51,065 bases of DNA from Flavobacteriales bacterium BRH_c54 (GTDB lineage: Bacteria; Bacteroidota; Bacteroidia; Flavobacteriales_E; Vicingaceae): assembly GCA_000961845.1 (NCBI GenBank), contig LADZ01000013.1, positions 1-51,065 of the forward strand, read 5' to 3'. A program made the translations under genes and the position numbers. The notes below the pieces were generated by a model that was not told the origin of the DNA, did no database searches, and saw nothing but the letters and a program-made list of their open reading frames with translations. Positions 9,902 through 32,163 of the stretch are shown here, piece after piece. Numbering within the stretch: the stretch's first letter is position 1; every line of letters begins with the position of its first letter.

Positions 9902-10678
9902 ATGGACTACAACAATATTTTAATAACTCAAGAAAATAACATTGCACAGGTAACGATTAACAGACCGAATCAATTAAATGCGTTGAATTCAGTTACAATA
10001 GCAGAGTTGAGCAGTGCTTTTAAAACATTAGAAGCAGATAAAAATGTTCGTGTAATCATAATTACCGGTTCTGGCGAAAAAGCCTTTGTTGCCGGTGCAG
10101 ACATCAAAGAGTTTTACCAATTTGATGTGGAAGAAGGAAAAAAGTTATCTGCAGAGGGACATCAAAAATTATTTGATTTAGTAGAAAATTTAACCACCCC
10201 GGTAATTGCTGCTGTTAATGGCTTTGCATTAGGTGGTGGATTAGAATTAGCCATGAGTTGCCATTTTAGAATTGCTTCTGATAATGCTAAATTAGGCTTG
10301 CCCGAAGTAACCTTAGGCGTAATACCGGGTTATGGAGGAACACAACGATTGGCTCAATTGGCAGGAAAAGGTAGAGCCATGGAAATGATAATGACTGCCA
10401 AAATGATTTCGGCTGAAGAAGCAGCCAATATTGGCTTAGTTAACCAAGTAGTTACGCAAGAAGAATTATTATCAACTTGTCAAAAAATAGCTCAAAAAAT
10501 AGCTTTCAATTCATCTACAGCCATTGCAAGTGCAATAAAAGCAGTAAATGCAGGGTTTAAAGACGGTGTAAATGGCTATGAAATAGAAATTAGTGAGTTT
10601 GGTAAATGCTTTGGAACACCCGATTTTGTTGAAGGAACAAATGCATTTATTGAAAAGCGTAAACCAGAATTTAGTTAA
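9902..10678 (+). CDS. Enoyl-CoA hydratase/isomerase (crotonase family)
   Basis: 258 residues, full length for short-chain enoyl-CoA hydratase, which adds water to trans-2-enoyl-CoA in beta-oxidation. The oxyanion-hole segments KAFVAGADIKEF and FALGGGLELAMSC are present. Both glutamates used by true hydratases are in place (GGGLELAM and GLPEVTLG), followed by GVIPGYGGTQRL. This favours real hydratase activity over isomerase. It appears monocistronic: a -7 box lies upstream, and downstream is a decayed repeat cassette followed by an unrelated flippase gene. The natural chain length or pathway cannot be told from sequence alone. Confidence 0.93.
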   Translation: MDYNNILITQENNIAQVTINRPNQLNALNSVTIAELSSAFKTLEADKNVRVIIITGSGEKAFVAGADIKEFYQFDVEEGKKLSAEGHQKLFDLVENLTTPVIAAVNGFALGGGLELAMSCHFRIASDNAKLGLPEVTLGVIPGYGGTQRLAQLAGKGRAMEMIMTAKMISAEEAANIGLVNQVVTQEELLSTCQKIAQKIAFNSSTAIASAIKAVNAGFKDGVNGYEIEISEFGKCFGTPDFVEGTNAFIEKRKPEFS

Positions 10679-10680
10679 AA

Positions 10681-10858
10681 GTTTATAAAGTAGAAAGTTT
10701 GATAGATGAAAATAGATAGGTTTGAAGATATAATAGTATGGCAAAAATCGAAACAGCTTACTCTTACTATTTATAAAGAATTTAAGGATAGTAGAGATTT
10801 TGGTTTTAAAGACCAGATTCAAAGAGGTTCTTTCTGGATTAATAAAAACTTTATAAAC
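10681..10858 (+). mobile_element. Internally deleted copy of the four-helix-bundle cassette
   Basis: Begins 2 nt after the hydratase stop with GTTTATAAAGT (10681-10691) and ends with AACTTTATAAAC (10847-10858). These are the same inverted ends as the intact cassette at 26051-26437. It contains the first 40 codons and the last 9 codons of the same gene, with 194 nt missing between. It resembles a non-autonomous derivative of a small mobile unit. Mobility is inferred from two copies with shared ends at unrelated loci. Confidence 0.6.
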
Positions 10859-10864
10859 TTTTAA
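10706..10864 (+). pseudogene. Four-helix-bundle protein gene with internal deletion
   Basis: The ATG at 10706 opens a 52-codon frame whose first 40 residues (starting MKIDRFEDIIVWQKSKQ) match the intact protein encoded at 26053-26397 almost residue for residue. After QIQR, the DNA jumps to the 3' end of the gene: GTTCTTTCTGGATTA (10827-10841) equals the codons for VLSGL of the intact copy but is now read out of frame. The lost segment is 194 nt, not a multiple of three, with a short AG overlap at the joint. The product would lack three of the four helices. A relic, not a functional gene. Confidence 0.85.
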
Positions 10865-10884
10865 CTTTACAAGCTTTCTACTAA

Positions 10885-12375
10885 ATGAGCAACCCTCTAA
10901 AAAAACTTGCCGGACAAACAGCTATTTATGGGCTTACAAGCATAGTTGGACGTTTGCTCAATTGGTTTTTGGTGCCTATATATATCGGAACAGCGAAATT
11001 TACGCCCGATCAATACGGAATTATTACCGAAATGTACTCCTACGTAGCATTTTTAGTGGTGTTTCTAACCTACGGCATGGAAACTGCTTTTTTCCGTTTT
11101 TCTACCTTGCAAGAGCACGATAATAAAAAAGTATATTCTACTATTATTTATTCGCTTTTCACCACTTCTTTCGTTTTTATTGCATTGGCTTTTTTGTTTG
11201 ATCAATCTATTGCTAATTGGCTGAAATATCCCAATAATAAAGAATTTGTAACTTGGTTTGCTATGATAGTTGGTTTAGATGCCGTTGCTTCTATTCCTAT
11301 GGCGAAATTAAGAGCAGATAATCGTCCCATAAAATTTGCTGTTATCAATTTTGCGAATATTGGTGTAAATATTGGCTTAAATTTATTTTTCTTAGCCTAT
11401 TGTTTACCGATGTATAAAGCTGGAGAAACCAATTGGCTCATTGAAACTTTTTATAACCCCGAAATAGGTGTGGGTTATGTTTTCATTGCGAACCTTATTG
11501 CGAGTATTGTTAAGTTTTTATTGTTACTGCCCGATATGCTAAAAGCTAAATTTAGTGTTGAATTCGTATTGCTTAAAAAAATGTTTATTTATGCATTGCC
11601 TTTATTAGTTTTTGGATTGGCAGGAATTGTAAATGAAACTATCGATAGGATTATGCTAAAGAGAATGTTGTTTGAGAGCAAAGGTGAGTTGGAGACTATG
11701 ACTCAAATAGGAATTTATGGTGCTTGTTATAAAGTTTCTATCATTGTTACACTGTTTATTCAAGCGTTTAGATATGCCGCAGAACCTTTCTTTTTTGCTC
11801 AGGAAAAAGAAAAAAATGCCAAAGAAATTTATGCTAGTATCATGACTTATTTTGTTATTATTTGTGCTACCATCTTTTTGGGAGTGATGTTGTACATCGA
11901 TATTGTGAAATATTTTATTCCCAACGAAGCCTATTGGGAAGGATTAAAAGTTGTTCCCGTATTACTTTTTGCCAATATTAGTTTAGGTATTTATTATAAT
12001 CAATCTATTTGGTACAAATTAAGTGGAAAAACAAAATATGGAGCCTACATTGGTATTTTGGGTGCTTTTATTACAGTGTTGTTAAATTACATTTGGATTC
12101 CAGTATTTGGTTACGTTGGTTCTGCTTGGGCAACATTAATTTGTTATTCGTCTATGTGTATTATTTCATTTGTTCTAGGACAAAAACATTACCCCATCAA
12201 ATACAATTATTTTAAAATTGGGATATATTTAGGCTTAGCACTATTACTTTATTTTGCAACAACTCAATTTACCATAGAAAATTTCTATATCAAACATCTT
12301 ATACATACGTTAATAATTTTTGCATTTTTAGGATTTATTTACGCCATCGAAAGACCAAAAAAAGTGGTAATTTAG
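10885..12375 (+). CDS. Polysaccharide/oligosaccharide flippase (Wzx/MATE-like)
   Basis: 496 residues with about 13-14 membrane helices spread over the whole length, as in polysaccharide biosynthesis flippases of the MOP superfamily that move lipid-linked glycans across the inner membrane. The N-terminus (LKKLAGQTAIYGLTSIVGR) is typical of Bacteroidota members, which form a conserved group often next to dut and nucleotidyltransferase genes, as here. The ATG at 10885 is the first start after the degraded repeat cassette. No other sugar-polymer genes except the nucleotidyltransferase at 12968 are near, so the glycan is unknown. Confidence 0.85.
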   Translation: MSNPLKKLAGQTAIYGLTSIVGRLLNWFLVPIYIGTAKFTPDQYGIITEMYSYVAFLVVFLTYGMETAFFRFSTLQEHDNKKVYSTIIYSLFTTSFVFIALAFLFDQSIANWLKYPNNKEFVTWFAMIVGLDAVASIPMAKLRADNRPIKFAVINFANIGVNIGLNLFFLAYCLPMYKAGETNWLIETFYNPEIGVGYVFIANLIASIVKFLLLLPDMLKAKFSVEFVLLKKMFIYALPLLVFGLAGIVNETIDRIMLKRMLFESKGELETMTQIGIYGACYKVSIIVTLFIQAFRYAAEPFFFAQEKEKNAKEIYASIMTYFVIICATIFLGVMLYIDIVKYFIPNEAYWEGLKVVPVLLFANISLGIYYNQSIWYKLSGKTKYGAYIGILGAFITVLLNYIWIPVFGYVGSAWATLICYSSMCIISFVLGQKHYPIKYNYFKIGIYLGLALLLYFATTQFTIENFYIKHLIHTLIIFAFLGFIYAIERPKKVVI

Positions 12376-12390
12376 CCGTCAAGTTAAAAA

Positions 12391-12428
12391 GTTTGAAGTT
12401 TGATGTTGTTGAACCTCAAACTTCAAAC
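12391..12428. repeat. Intergenic palindrome of the AAGTTTGAAGTTT type
   Basis: Perfect 13-bp inverted repeat GTTTGAAGTTTGA (12391-12403) and TCAAACTTCAAAC (12416-12428), followed by CTGAAACCTCAAACC. A related element lies at 31799-31829. There is no T tail, so it is more a repeat element than a terminator. Confidence 0.7.
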
Positions 12429-12450
12429 CTGAAACCTCAAACCAATAATT

Positions 12451-25602: not shown

Positions 25603-26031
25603 CTAGGCCTTAGCTTGTGTATTGAATGCAATAGCATACATTCTAATTTGTTTTAACATTGATAATAATCCATTACTTCTGGTTGGCGACAAGTGTTCTT
25701 GTAATCCAATTTGATCTATGAAAAATAAATTGGCATCAATTATTTCTTGTGGGGTATGGTTGGAAAATACTCTAATCACTAACCCAACAATTCCTTTAGT
25801 AATAATAGCATCACTATCGGCAGAAAAAATTATTTTACCGTCTTTTAGTTCTGCATGTAACCAAACCTTACTTTGGCAGCCTTTTATTAAATTTTCGTCT
25901 GTCTTATATTGTTCATCAATCAACGGTAAATCTTTGCCTAATTCAATGATGTGCTCGTACTTATCCATCCATTCATCAAACAGAGCGAATTCTTCTATTA
26001 TTTCTTGTTGTATTTCTTTAATGGAGTTCAT
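25603..26031 (-). CDS. sufE: Cysteine desulfuration protein SufE
   Basis: 142 residues. It accepts persulfide sulfur from SufS and passes it to the SufBCD scaffold. The acceptor Cys is in LIKGCQSKVWL (Cys52), and the downstream IITKGIVGLVIRVFSNHTPQEI block is typical. It lies in the suf operon, but is separated from sufS by the four-helix-bundle cassette, whose right repeat ends just before this start codon. Any loss of read-through there would uncouple SufE from SufS. Confidence 0.95.
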   Translation of the reverse strand: MNSIKEIQQEIIEEFALFDEWMDKYEHIIELGKDLPLIDEQYKTDENLIKGCQSKVWLHAELKDGKIIFSADSDAIITKGIVGLVIRVFSNHTPQEIIDANLFFIDQIGLQEHLSPTRSNGLLSMLKQIRMYAIAFNTQAKA

Positions 26032-26050
26032 AAAGTTGAAAGTTAGTAAA

Positions 26051-26437
26051 GTTTATAAAGTTTTTATTAATCCTGAAAGAACCTTGGATATTTCTTCAGC
26101 AAGTTGATATTTTTCATCAAAACTTTCTTTAGAAATGGTGTTTAATTCTTTAGCCAAATAAAGCATAGAACGTACTTCTCCACAAGAACCTTTAGCAATA
26201 TATAAAAAGTATTTAAATTCATTATTGGATTTTCTTTCAAATCCTTCAGCAATATTATTCATAACAGAAACAGCAGCTCTTTGAATTTGGTCTTTAAAAC
26301 CAAAGTCTTTACTGCCAGCAAAATCTCTATAAATAAGTATAGAAAGTTGTTTAGCTTTTTGCCATGCAATAATATCTTCAAATCTATCTATTTTCATTTT
26401 TTACTTTCTAACTTTTTACTTTACAAACTTTATAAAC
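26051..26437 (-). mobile_element. Four-helix-bundle gene cassette with 12-bp terminal inverted repeats
   Basis: The cassette is bounded by GTTTATAAAGTT (26051-26062) and AACTTTATAAAC (26426-26437), exact reverse complements of each other. One end abuts the sufS stop codon; the other overlaps the stop of the enclosed gene. It holds a single gene and degenerate AAAGTT/AACTTT repeats inside the ends. The same ends flank a deleted copy at 10681-10858. No transposase is present, so mobility would need help from elsewhere. Calling it mobile is inference from duplicated ends and position. Confidence 0.65.
26053..26397 (-). CDS. Four-helix-bundle protein (S23/23S rRNA IVP family)
   Basis: 114 residues, full family length. 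Starts MKIDRFEDIIAWQKAKQLS, contains FKDQIQRAAVSVMNNIAEGFER and a third/fourth-helix region GSCGEVRSMLYLAKEL. All are hallmarks of the family first found in intervening sequences of 23S rRNA genes and related to the Avd accessory protein of diversity-generating retroelements. Biochemical function is unknown; the basic pentameric relatives bind nucleic acid. It sits inside the suf operon between sufS and sufE in the operon's direction, and so is probably co-transcribed, with no known link to Fe-S assembly. It is flanked by inverted repeats (see cassette). Confidence 0.9.
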   Translation of the reverse strand: MKIDRFEDIIAWQKAKQLSILIYRDFAGSKDFGFKDQIQRAAVSVMNNIAEGFERKSNNEFKYFLYIAKGSCGEVRSMLYLAKELNTISKESFDEKYQLAEEISKVLSGLIKTL

Positions 26438-27709
26438 TCACAATAACATTTTCAGTGCTCTTTCCAAAGCAAGTATAAAAGTATCAATTTCCTCTTTGGT
26501 ATTATAAAAAGCAAATGAGGCTCTTGCTGTTCCGGGAATATCAAAGCGATTCATTAGCGGTTCGGTACAATGGTGCCCGGTTCTAATAGCTATTCCCAAT
26601 TTGTCTATAATCATCCCAATGTCAGATGGATGTATGCCATCTACCAAAAAAGACAATACACTTGCTTTGTTGGCAGCTTCTCCTATTATTCTAACCCCTT
26701 CTATTTTCTTTATTTTTTCGGTGGCGTAGTTTAATAACTCATGCTCGTAAGCTTCAATGTTGGTGATACCAATCTTATTCATATAATCAATGGCAGCTGC
26801 TAAACCCAGTCCACCAACAATGTTGGGTGTTCCTGCTTCAAATTTATGAGGTAGTTCGTTGTAAGTTGTTTTCTCAAAAGTTACGGTTTTAATCATATCT
26901 CCACCACCTTGGTAGGGAGGTAACTCATTTAAAATGGCTTCTTTTCCATATAAAATACCTACACCTGTGGGGCCGAACATTTTATGCCCCGAAAAAGCAT
27001 AAAAATCGCAATCTAGCTCTTGAACATCAACTTTGGTATGAGGAACTGCTTGTGCTCCATCAATCAACACAAAAGCTCCAGCCGCTTTAGCCAATTTAAT
27101 AATTTCTTTAACAGGATTTATGGTTCCTAATGTATTGGAAACATGTGTTACAGTTACTAATTTTGTTTTAGGCGAAAGCAGTCTTTTAAACTCCTCCATC
27201 AATAATTCACCTTTGTCATTGATTGGAATTACTTTTAAAATAGCTTTTTTTTCTTCGCATAACATTTGCCACGGAACAATATTAGAATGATGTTCCATGG
27301 TGGAAATAATAATTTCATCGCCTGCCTGAATGTGTTTTTTTCCAAAGCTAGAAGCTACTAAATTCACGCTTCCTGTGGTACCGCTAGTAAAGATTACTTC
27401 GTGATGATGTTGGGCATTAATAAACTGTTGTATTGTTTTTCGGGCTTTTTCATAAGCATCGGTAGCCTCCTGACTTAAGGTATGAATTCCTCTGTGGATA
27501 TTGCTATTTTCGTGTTGGTAATAACGATTGATAACATCAATTACTTGTCGAGGTTTTTGCGAAGTAGCTCCATTATCAAAATAGATTAATGGTTTCCCGT
27601 TCACTTGGCGGTGAAGGATGGGGAAGTCTTTTCTAATTTCTTCTACATTTAACTTATATGTTGTTGCTTCCACAGTTTTTATTTTTATTCTTTTAACTCC
27701 ATTGTCCAC
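26438..27709 (-). CDS. sufS: Cysteine desulfurase SufS
   Basis: 423 residues; a PLP enzyme (NifS/CsdB group) that takes sulfur from cysteine for Fe-S clusters. The N-terminal core starts at VEEIRKDFPILHRQVNGKPL. The PLP lysine is in FSGHKMFGPTGVG, and the persulfide cysteine is in RTGHHCTEPLM. The ATG at 27709 overlaps the upstream unknown ORF by 25 nt and adds about 20 residues before the core; a GTG at 27673 is an alternative that avoids most of the overlap. The stop codon directly abuts the left repeat of the four-helix-bundle cassette. Confidence 0.96.
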   Translation of the reverse strand: MDNGVKRIKIKTVEATTYKLNVEEIRKDFPILHRQVNGKPLIYFDNGATSQKPRQVIDVINRYYQHENSNIHRGIHTLSQEATDAYEKARKTIQQFINAQHHHEVIFTSGTTGSVNLVASSFGKKHIQAGDEIIISTMEHHSNIVPWQMLCEEKKAILKVIPINDKGELLMEEFKRLLSPKTKLVTVTHVSNTLGTINPVKEIIKLAKAAGAFVLIDGAQAVPHTKVDVQELDCDFYAFSGHKMFGPTGVGILYGKEAILNELPPYQGGGDMIKTVTFEKTTYNELPHKFEAGTPNIVGGLGLAAAIDYMNKIGITNIEAYEHELLNYATEKIKKIEGVRIIGEAANKASVLSFLVDGIHPSDIGMIIDKLGIAIRTGHHCTEPLMNRFDIPGTARASFAFYNTKEEIDTFILALERALKMLL

Positions 27710-28038: not shown

Positions 28039-28061
28039 TATCAATTTAAAATTTTGTTCAG

Positions 28062-28125
28062 ACTTACATTAATTCTCACATTAAGTAATTCTCATATCTG
28101 CACATTTGCTCATTCACACATTAAA
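28062..28125. repeat. Degenerate TCACATT-type tandem repeat between sufD and the unknown gene
   Basis: Units such as CTTACATTAA, TCTCACATTAA, TCTGCACATT and TTCACACATTAAAC follow one another with small changes. Such arrays occur as intergenic repeats in Bacteroidota. No coding potential. Confidence 0.5.
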
Positions 28126-28128
28126 CAA

Positions 28129-29412
28129 TCACTCCAATTCTTCCTCAATTTTAGCATCAATATACTCGTGCAAGGTCTCAATAGATATTCTCTCCAAGGC
28201 ATCTTTAGCAAAAGCATTAATCATTAATTTTAAGGCTCCTTTTTTCGAAATTCCTCTCGATTGTAAGTAAAAAATCGCTTCTTCATCAATCTGTCCAGTT
28301 GTTGAACCATGGCTACATTTTACATCATCGGCATAAATTTCTAACTCAGGCTTTGAGTTTGCAGTTGCATTATCAGAAAGTAAAATATTGTTGTTTTGCT
28401 GAAAAGCATTAGTAATTTGAGCATCTTGTCTAACAAACACTTTTCCGTTAAATACTCCTGTTGATTCATCATCTAACACACCTCTATAAACCTCATTAGA
28501 ATTACAGTGTGGTTTTTTATGGTCAACTACGGTGTGATTGTCAATATGATCTTTGTTTTTCCCTAAATACAATCCGTTAAGGTTAGTTTCGCAGTTGGAC
28601 GCATCTACTTCAATGTTTAGGTTATTTCTTACCAACGCACCATTAAAGATAGCAGTATTGATGGTGAAATTACTATTAGCATCTTGGTAAACTTGTTCGG
28701 TAGCAATGCTAAAGTTATTTTCTTTTTTATCCTGAATTTTATTGTATTCTAAATGGGTATTTTCAGCAACAAAAAATTCTGAAACGTGGTTGTTAAAATT
28801 CTTTTCACCACCAACATTAATAAAAGATTCGATGATTTTTACCTGACTACCAGCATTGGCAACAAATAAATTTCTGCTTAGCGAAATCGTATTATTTCCA
28901 GTAGTAATGTTGATAATATGGAAAGGTTTTTCAACGATTTTGTTTTTAGCCACTTCCAAATAAATACCATCGGTATGAAAGGCATTGTTGAACGCTAAAA
29001 ATATTTCTTTTTTATCTTGAGTAAACTGATTGAAATGTTTTTTTAATCCTTCAAAATTTTGCTTTTTAGCGTGAGAAAGTGAAGTTAATGTAATGCCATC
29101 TACTGAAGTGAAATCAGATAAATCGGCAACTACATGTCCGTTAATAATTACCAATACTTGTGCATCCAAATTTGGAATTAAAAAATTGCTAACATCAATT
29201 TTCTCAGGTTGACCCAAGGTGTAGGTATTGTTTACAATTTTGCCCACACGTGTATATTTCCAATATTCTGTTTTAGAAGTAGGAAAGTCTAATTCGTTAA
29301 GTTCGTTTTTTGCATTATTTCGTAAGCCTTCAAAATAACCGTCTTCATTAAACTGAAGAGGTGATAATGTGGCTAAGAAAGTATCTTTTTTTGTTAGTTC
29401 TGCTGTTGTCAT
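28129..29412 (-). CDS. sufD: Fe-S cluster assembly protein SufD
   Basis: 427 residues. SufD pairs with SufB and SufC as the scaffold on which Fe-S clusters are built. N-terminal helical part with FPTSKTEYWKYTRVGKI; the central beta-helix holds the SufBD core. The C-terminal DDVKCSHGSTTGQIDEEAIFYLQSRGI is diagnostic, followed by LMINAFAKDAL. Length and architecture are normal. It follows sufC closely in the operon. On its 3' side a repeat spacer and the unknown 117-residue ORF separate it from sufS. Confidence 0.96.
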   Translation of the reverse strand: MTTAELTKKDTFLATLSPLQFNEDGYFEGLRNNAKNELNELDFPTSKTEYWKYTRVGKIVNNTYTLGQPEKIDVSNFLIPNLDAQVLVIINGHVVADLSDFTSVDGITLTSLSHAKKQNFEGLKKHFNQFTQDKKEIFLAFNNAFHTDGIYLEVAKNKIVEKPFHIINITTGNNTISLSRNLFVANAGSQVKIIESFINVGGEKNFNNHVSEFFVAENTHLEYNKIQDKKENNFSIATEQVYQDANSNFTINTAIFNGALVRNNLNIEVDASNCETNLNGLYLGKNKDHIDNHTVVDHKKPHCNSNEVYRGVLDDESTGVFNGKVFVRQDAQITNAFQQNNNILLSDNATANSKPELEIYADDVKCSHGSTTGQIDEEAIFYLQSRGISKKGALKLMINAFAKDALERISIETLHEYIDAKIEEELE

Positions 29413-29470
29413 TTTTGGAATGTTAAATTTTAAGTTTTGAATTTTAAATAATAGATGTGTAACCTAACAT

Positions 29471-31769: not shown

Positions 31770-31798
31770 TTTATTAGTTTAAAAGTTTAATGTTCAAA

Positions 31799-31829
31799 GT
31801 TTGAAGTTTATTAATATTGAACTTCAAAC
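31799..31829. repeat. Intergenic palindrome of the AAGTTTGAAGTTT type between sufA-like gene and sufB
   Basis: GTTTGAAGTT (31799-31808) and AACTTCAAAC (31820-31829) form a 10-bp inverted repeat, followed by CTGAAAC just as in the element at 12391-12428. Degenerate AAGTTTAATGTTCAAAG continues on its other side. Confidence 0.65.
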
Positions 31830-31836
31830 CTGAAAC

Positions 31837-32163
31837 TTACAGCGAGAAACTCTCCCCACAACCGCAAGTTCTATTAGCGTTAGGATTTTTAAAAATAAAG
31901 CCTTTACCATTAAGTCCACCTGAAAAATCAAGTTCTGTTCCGGCAAGGTATAGAATGCTCTTTTTGTCGCAAACGACTTTCATTCCGTTATCTTCAAAGA
32001 TTTTATCATCATCGTTCATAACATGGTCGAATGATAAATCGTAAGTCAAACCAGAGCACCCACCACCTTTAACACCCACTCTAATAAAGCTTCCTTCAGG
32101 AGCATTATCTTCTTGCATTAACTTAATTGCTTGTCTTTTTGCGTTTTCTGAAACTGTTATCAT
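31837..32163 (-). CDS. A-type Fe-S carrier (IscA/SufA/HesB family)
   Basis: 108 residues. The three conserved cysteines are at GVKGGGCSGLTYDL and the C-terminal TCGCGESFSL, which bind an Fe-S cluster for delivery to target proteins. First gene of the suf operon: the promoter at 32197-32228 predicts a leader of about 28 nt before this ATG. Whether it acts as SufA or ErpA cannot be decided from the sequence alone. Confidence 0.95.
   Translation of the reverse strand: MITVSENAKRQAIKLMQEDNAPEGSFIRVGVKGGGCSGLTYDLSFDHVMNDDDKIFEDNGMKVVCDKKSILYLAGTELDFSGGLNGKGFIFKNPNANRTCGCGESFSL

Follow-up and report, generated by a model that had tools for sequence, protein, structure and literature searches.

A four-helix-bundle (S23/IVP) gene between sufS and sufE of Flavobacteriales bacterium BRH_c54 is bounded by two inverted arrays of short degenerate words, and inverted heptamer-array ends of this kind are the usual architecture of the S23/IVP genes sampled here from many phyla, typically with each gene having its own word on both arms. 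The explanation that best accounts for the observations jointly is a mobile insertion unit of about 0.4 kb that has inverted heptamer-array ends, encodes a ring protein recognizing its own array, and is joined to its target in trans. We give this reading a probability of roughly 0.6. Positions below refer to the window, the whole stretch of 51,065 nucleotides that was analysed (contig C56 of the window's own genome, G000); other G numbers denote relatives and L numbers denote loci.

The four-helix-bundle gene (26053-26397, minus strand) encodes 114 amino acids and matches PF05635 (122.1 bits against a cut-off of 33.8; 1.5e-35) as well as the 'four helix bundle protein' model TIGR02436 (116.3 bits against a cut-off of 24; 6.9e-34). 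It lies between, and is co-directional with, its upstream operon neighbour sufS (26438-27709, minus strand; TIGR01979, 617 bits) and its downstream neighbour sufE (25603-26031, minus strand; PF02657, 5e-48). The cassette codes for this protein only, and no transposase is encoded. Its 5' arm (26398-26440, minus strand) reaches from the sufS stop codon to the start of the gene and is an array of 7-9-nt words (GTTTATAAA GTTTGTAAA GTAAAAA GTTAGAAA GTAAAAA). Similar words are found inverted in the 3' arm (26023-26062, minus strand), which includes the stop codon of the four-helix-bundle gene (26053-26055) and the start codon of sufE (26029-26031). The inverted alignment of 26398-26440 with 26023-26058 has a score of 17, which is matched by 3 of 5000 random window pairs of equal geometry, and the cassette thus possesses terminal inverted repeats in the sense used for MITEs and insertion sequences. 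An array-like stretch is also present upstream of sufS (28044-28130; CACATTTGCTCATTCACACATTAA).

The initial annotation recognized this unit by perfect 12-bp inverted ends, and exact reverse complements do occur around the gene at 26051-26062 (the right copy, reading GTTTATAAAGTT on the plus strand) and 26426-26437 (the left copy). These 12-mers are the best-matching portion of the two inverted arms, each of about 40 nt and made of degenerate 7-9-nt words. The right copy overlaps the gene's stop codon and so does not lie outside the gene as had been supposed, and the unit is about 418 bp long counting the sufS stop codon, rather than 387 bp, with its right arm passing through the sufE start codon. 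When one mismatch is permitted, the 12-mer has five matches in the window compared with 2.0 expected, and 7 of 100 shuffles reach five. As a general cassette end the exact 12-mer was rejected, with 5 copies in the 2.9-Mb genome and 2 copies of the reversed control pattern. The proposed family of repeat-bounded cassettes survives in a different form: the architecture surrounds four-helix-bundle genes generally, but the exact 12-bp ends are not common to them. The meaning given to the unit in the initial annotation was roughly right, with the 12-mer being incidental and the general sign being an inverted heptamer array that typically has its own word.

Ten PF05635 matches occur in the window genome, nine of them above the curated cut-off and the tenth (10724-10849) in an internally deleted copy. 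Judged by eye, most of these cassettes are flanked on both sides by an inverted word array, with words that differ from one cassette to another; L013 is a clear exception and L008 falls at a contig end. S23/IVP genes were found in all 47 genomes of this bacterial class that were searched (the window genome and 46 relatives) and in none of 14 well-known control genomes. Two sets of cassettes were assembled. The relatives set was drawn from the better-scoring rows among the matches listed, not at random, and consists of 98 loci that yielded 97 four-helix ORFs in 95 loci; 85 of these ORFs have two same-strand neighbours and entered the flank analysis. The named-genome set comes from a scan with a six-protein alignment and comprises the best 80 of 585 confirmed loci, 78 of which gave an ORF. 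Because the sets include the window genome (9 loci) and near-identical orthologues (such as L112/L113, L114/L115 and L079/L084/L085), their counts are not fully independent.

The flanks of the 85 relatives' cassettes have a strong 7-nt period. Identity at lag 7 is 0.439 in left flanks (0.301 when shuffled, z = 25.6) and 0.428 in right flanks (0.299 when shuffled, z = 20.6), with harmonics at 14 and 21 and a weaker signal at lag 8. The two arms of one cassette align in inverted orientation with a mean score of 17.0, compared with 8.6 between cassettes and 10.4 in the direct sense, and a cassette's own arm comes first in 28 of the 85 cases, is in the top five in 53 and falls below rank 20 in 17. 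Mean inverted flank similarity is 19.0 for 98 four-helix genes and 11.0 for 57 control genes (10.2 versus 11.6 in the direct sense), and a score of at least 14 is reached by 79 of the former and 14 of the latter. Among 12 hand-listed genomes, different cassettes of the same genome have an arm score of 11.5 (n = 97) and own arms one of 18.3 (n = 51), which argues that arm matching is not mere genome composition.

With one threshold applied throughout, arrays are recognized in 78 of 145 relatives' flanks (54%) and 72 of 109 named-genome flanks (66%), with the remaining 46% and 34% below the array score. The same threshold is passed by 12 of 124 other co-directional gaps in G004 (10%), a single AT-rich genome whose gaps are longer (median 73.5 versus 52-53 nt) and which is not matched to the named-genome set, where shuffling is the control. 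Four-helix flanks from the window's own genus score in 24 of 54 cases. The G004 control is a 400-kb stretch that replaced a first one of 27 gaps, which was too small; 4 of those 27 scored, at least two being true arrays and one of them a four-helix flank. Arrays with words of 8-9 nt, as in the suf and L012 cassettes, are missed by the 7-nt score.

Of the 78 named-genome cassettes, 59 have one or both arms scoring, compared with 1.4% of shuffled flanks. Grouped into phyla by record title, these are Bacteroidota and relatives (23/34), Bacillota (12/13), Patescibacteria (5/9), Planctomycetota (5/5), Acidobacteriota (4/4), the Verrucomicrobiota group (3/3), Pseudomonadota (2/3), Chloroflexota (2/2), SAR324 (1/1), Desulfobacterota (0/1), one archaeon (0/1) and unassigned records (2/2). 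Among 19 loci from a viral collection (L215-L233), putatively of phage origin, 18 have a four-helix ORF, and 16 of these exceed a 7-nt array score of 10.5 in one flank or both, as computed on 90-nt flanks with no shuffle control.

The consensus of 170 phase-aligned arrays is TTAGTNA, and it is identical for left arms and reverse-complemented right arms. The logo contains 161 arms per side for 163 cassettes, since two loci with two ORFs share an identifier. The median array length is 5.4 words, with flanks cut at 80-160 nt. Variation within arrays is lowest at the G (0.16, compared with 0.27-0.29 at the loosest positions and a lowest random-phase value of 0.18), although the phase was fitted on the same data as the logo and this constancy is consequently partly built in. 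At one locus of the window genome (L394, contig C1) the word drifts gradually along the array from AGTCTTC to AATTTCT, as if neighbours were slightly altered copies of one another. At another (L353, contig C51, near 42362) a heptamer array appears by eye to lie within coding sequence and to be read in frame.

Most units are sense-oriented and occupy operon junctions. Both neighbours are on the same strand and in the same sense as the four-helix gene in 85 of 97 cases among relatives and 57 of 78 among named genomes, and both are opposite in only 2 and 3 cases, respectively. Median gaps among the relatives are 52 and 43.5 nt. Sites that recur, with neighbours named by eye, include sdhA-sdhB, sufA-sufB, sufB-sufC and pairs of fatty-acid oxidation genes. 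Within the genus, a given junction may have or lack the suf unit or one of its relatives. A survey of 40 loci fetched for eight junctions, which excludes some junctions already known to hold the gene, found a four-helix gene in 9, and where one congener has a particular word at a junction, others often have another word or an array with no gene. Some of these operon junctions are occupied in relatives (L297-L300, L307 and L308) by repeats of a distinct family (CCTCCCC...CCCCTCCGAAGGAGGGG and similar).

The sufS-sufE junction was compared in 30 loci, namely that of the window genome together with the 29 that matched best out of 88 genomes having SufE. The cassette is found in two of them, G000 and G004, which belong to one genus; it is consequently carried by one of 29 relatives and absent from 28, which is contrary to the refuting case foreseen in the initial annotation, where all relatives would carry the gene at this place and other such genes would be without the ends. 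Three loci have gene-less arrays here (L019, L024 and L034) and three have other genes (L017, L020 and L043), with an arm-like stretch before sufE in L017 and L020. The remaining 22 have a gap of at most 51 nt between BLAST ends and hence no insertion, and in 14 of these 22 TAATG can be read at the junction by eye. In both L017 (G002) and L020 (G003) a different ORF (172 amino acids in L017) with no Pfam match begins at the sufS stop, and the arm-like stretch then ends in the sufE start codon. The sufE gene of the window begins with ATGAAC (MN), while MT or MS is found in most of the relatives compared; across the loci, ATGAAC starts sufE in L016, L017, L018, L020 and L034, and ATGACAATA is kept in the array-bearing L019 and L024.

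A comparable situation exists at the L006 junction. Among eight genomes the cassette is present there in G000 only and absent from six, and in G003 a different gene lies between arrays of the same words. This G003 gene (L289) encodes 322 amino acids, has no Pfam match and is located between GTTTGA/TCAAAC arrays, so that cargo of another kind can also be bounded by arrays. None of the three proteins that replace a four-helix gene between or beside arrays has a Pfam match. The N-terminus of the next gene is derived from the array, being new in G000 and reading MNLKPQTSNSFFAHET in G003, while in the six genomes without the insertion it reads MKNYFAHET, MKDYSAHET, MSDFFAHET, MKDFFAHET, MNNYFAHET or MKSETFFAHET. 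Where a cassette lies upstream of sufS (L079 in G004, L084 in G001 and L085 in G002), SufS begins MNFINSDK, and this start is apparently arm-encoded too. On inspection by eye, the suf and L006 junctions show neither a target duplication nor a fixed target, and the original spacer has been replaced.

Mobility is well supported by this presence and absence at junctions together with the occurrence of one unit at three sites, in agreement with the mobile unit proposed initially. Members of the subfamily to which the suf cassette belongs have the same words, similar ends and full-length proteins that are 87-100% identical. They are found directly upstream of sufS in G001, G002 and G004 (the neighbour being confirmed as SufS); G000 and G004 have one between sufS and sufE, and a further one lies at 10673-10890 (plus strand) of the window. 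The last of these is the internally deleted copy, which retains both arms, about the first 40 codons and the last bases of the gene; its residual ORF (10706-10864) has 52 amino acids and its profile match falls below the curated cut-off.

Similar proteins at non-homologous sites, defined by neighbours without BLASTP similarity, also tend to carry similar words. Arm similarity at such sites is 10.7 when the proteins are less than 40% identical (n = 8162), 11.0 (n = 3297) and 11.5 (n = 762) in the successive intermediate classes below 60%, and 14.4 at 60-75% identity (n = 59). It rises to 21.4 at 75% or more (n = 5), although these high-identity pairs are few and non-independent, with three of the five sharing L145.

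Arrays also occur with no gene. In the window, a palindromic heptamer array of GTTTGAA/TTCAAAC words is found at 12389-12443, and two more gene-less arrays lie in the suf operon, whose ORFs were here identified by eye. One, at 29419-29456, separates the presumed sufC and sufD, and the other, a palindromic array at 31779-31838, separates the presumed sufA and sufB. Two relatives (L319 and L320) have a four-helix-bundle cassette at the sufA-sufB junction that is occupied by the gene-less array in the window. In the 400-kb G004 stretch, 20 of 207 gaps (those of at least 25 nt and away from its sole four-helix gene) reach a stricter score, one of them through masked bases. The score is also attained by 5 of 206 shuffled gaps and by 14 of 4464 coding tiles, and by eye some seven of the G004 gaps resemble true gene-less arrays. 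Gene-less arrays thus look commoner than the genes. Array formation may consequently be a separate process, which counts against the mobile-unit explanation.

The initial annotation further proposed that the units are moved in trans, and this is hinted at by a comparison of four words with the genes present in 12 genomes, the words having been picked after the arrays were seen. GTTTGA fits, having 20 matches at 8 places in G000, which has the gene with this word (4 for the reversed-pattern control), and 0-4 matches in the 11 others. TTAGAAATTAGA fits in part. The cassette-bearing G005 (13 matches) and G027 (9) lead and the ten others have 0-3, with the exception that G000, G002 and G004 have a cassette of the TTAGAAA type (L011, L113 and L112, respectively) and just 1-2 matches. 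There is no fit for GTTTATAAAGTT (20 matches in G001, 5 in G027, 4 each in G003 and G005, 2 in G002, 1 each in G000, G004 and G017, and 0 in the other four) or for CAGTTnAC (6 in G027 and 1 each in G001 and G003, yet 0 in G005 despite such words in its L118 cassette). With two words that fit, one of them in part, and two that fail, action in trans is no more than a possibility.

The protein itself is predicted with confidence. The AlphaFold model of the window protein has a pLDDT of 97 and four helices, and it superimposes on ten chains of the homologues 2gsc and 2rld, which have five chains each, with query TM scores of 0.80-0.91, as appropriate for the four-helix fold. The Xanthomonas homologue is described as a toroidal homopentamer in passages of PMC4990558. 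The four-helix-bundle protein has no catalytic domain.

According to the mobile-unit explanation, the gene would be the cargo of a small insertion unit whose ends are two inverted arrays of a degenerate TTAGTNA read inward from the outer ends, and the gene and its arms would travel together as a single unit at the level of DNA. The encoded protein may recognize its own array, perhaps with one word for each subunit of a five-chain ring, and the joining could be performed by an enzyme supplied in trans. Gene-less palindromic arrays would then be non-autonomous or decayed relatives, and the intervening sequences (IVSs) of 23S rRNA may be members of the class that landed in an rRNA gene. Reading of this kind, with a word for each subunit of the ring, would agree with the median of 5.4 words per array and with the constant AG of the word. 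The ring protein TRAP, which binds UAG/GAG repeats, offers an analogy for such reading. The protein's want of a catalytic domain and the absence of a target duplication or fixed target by eye count against the explanation, as do the flanks that miss the array score, the own arms of low rank and the words that fail to track their genes. A broader version extends it to a mobile class that spans phyla, in which each private word is read by its own ring protein, arrays are made or extended during insertion, gene-less arrays are non-autonomous products and rRNA IVSs are members. This version is plausible but tentative, and we would sooner bet against all its parts holding together.

Alternatively, the arms might act in RNA, as a stem in the mRNA that is cut by RNase III, so that the insert is tolerated through excision or serves to separate messages and selection operates on the stem. 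Passages of PMC4990558 describe a Coxiella IVS of the same plan that RNase III cuts in vitro. Matched arms pair with -28.8 kcal/mol compared with -10.0 kcal/mol for mismatched cassettes, and they pair better than word-order-shuffled arms in 67 of 84 cases, as a common origin of the two arms likewise predicts. The suf cassette RNA has a fold z-score of -2.54 with its arms partly paired. However, G.U is not in excess over A.C among arm mismatches (102 versus 121, p = 0.23), and this wobble test on 93 cassettes consequently detects no selection for an RNA stem. The AG of the word is also equally constant on both arms and gives no sign that RNA pairing is selected. Together, these two observations favour recognition or generation at the DNA level, and we consider the RNA explanation unlikely. 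It is quite unlikely that the arrays are ordinary slippage-prone heptamer repeats of operon gaps and that the protein is the product of an immobile host gene and exploits them, for example in autoregulation, as binding sites comparable to the UAG/GAG repeats bound by TRAP. The frequency of gene-less arrays and the position of the 5' arm immediately before the start codon agree with that explanation, as do heptamer arrays published with no such gene mentioned in passages of PMC4679880. It does not account for the matched inverted arms, for presence and absence at junctions, for the gene and arms at three sites or for the correlation of word and protein at non-homologous sites. It also fits poorly with the 3' arm, on which AG varies no more even though the message there bears the complement.

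A retroelement-like origin seems highly improbable. In this reading a reverse transcriptase would act in trans with the protein as its Avd-like partner, and slippage in target-primed synthesis would generate the arrays at the junction. It draws on the match of the model to Avd (4dwl, TM 0.77) and to a DGR ribonucleoprotein (8ub7, TM 0.78), which has E values of 0.008-0.03 and about 10-12% sequence identity, and on arrays that point inward on both sides, an arrangement that extension of the two 3' ends at a break could produce. On the other side, RVT_1 is found in 2 of 12 genomes carrying four-helix genes and in none of the other 10, some of whose assemblies are incomplete, and a resident reverse transcriptase as required partner is consequently unsupported. 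The only RVT_1 match in G000 (L325, contig C41, 5410-6069) lies on a different contig from the window's.

If the mobile-unit explanation is true, it would unite the S23/IVP proteins and the rRNA intervening sequences with the heptamer repeats known from Beggiatoaceae, Cyanobacteria and some Bacteroidetes. A recognition code would be predicted, in which protein variants read different 7-nt words by means of a ring, with many natural protein-word pairs available. Operon junctions are also rewritten here, an inserted repeat supplying start codons and N-termini.

The design of the cassette, compared with known systems, points to a widespread and largely undescribed small mobile element. MITEs and REP/RAYT elements are likewise short, inverted and intergenic with many gene-less copies, but the ends of the present cassettes are arrays of varying words rather than one fixed sequence, no transposase is encoded and no target duplication is seen by eye. 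The Avd protein of diversity-generating retroelements has the same fold, whereas the suf cassette locus has no neighbouring reverse transcriptase. The homology of PF05635 and Avd is remarked on in passages of PMC10053308, and passages of PMC11637426 and PMC10910872 mention the family in passing. Passages of PMC4679880 describe direct repeats of the heptamer TAACTGA in Beggiatoaceae, Cyanobacteria and five Bacteroidetes. Like the cassette arms, these are intergenic, have a 7-nt unit and lie near start codons, and the reverse complement TCAGTTA fits TTAGTNA except at the second, loosely kept position. That paper focuses on a single word, present in 169 direct sets plus one indirect repeat, and the terms 'S23', 'four helix' and 'intervening' have no occurrences in it.

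The closest likeness is to the 23S rRNA IVS of Coxiella. The initial annotation knew of no description of S23 genes as repeat-bounded cassettes, and for S23 genes outside rRNA as heptamer-bounded cassettes we likewise found no account in the titles, abstract openings or passages of the open-licence literature; within rRNA, the plan has a precedent. Passages of PMC4990558 describe an S23 ORF between complementary termini in Coxiella, with tandem heptamers (GACAGAT) of strain-variable copy number just before the S23 start codon. The suf cassette shares the S23/IVP ORF, the complementary termini and the heptamers before the start codon. According to the same passages, the Coxiella IVS is situated in helix 45 of an rRNA gene and is excised by RNase III, whereas the cassettes occupy mRNA operon junctions, and its repeats are described as a local feature of the 5' side only, while the arrays here are on both arms with words that are typically cassette-specific. 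The authors also judge that Coxiella probably makes no S23 protein in vivo and that the ORF is in decay, which argues against an essential role for the protein there. The suf cassette is thus built like an IVS, yet by its location between sufS and sufE, outside any rRNA gene, it is not one, and, to judge from the match, the rRNA intervening sequences seem to be the already familiar part of a broader class.
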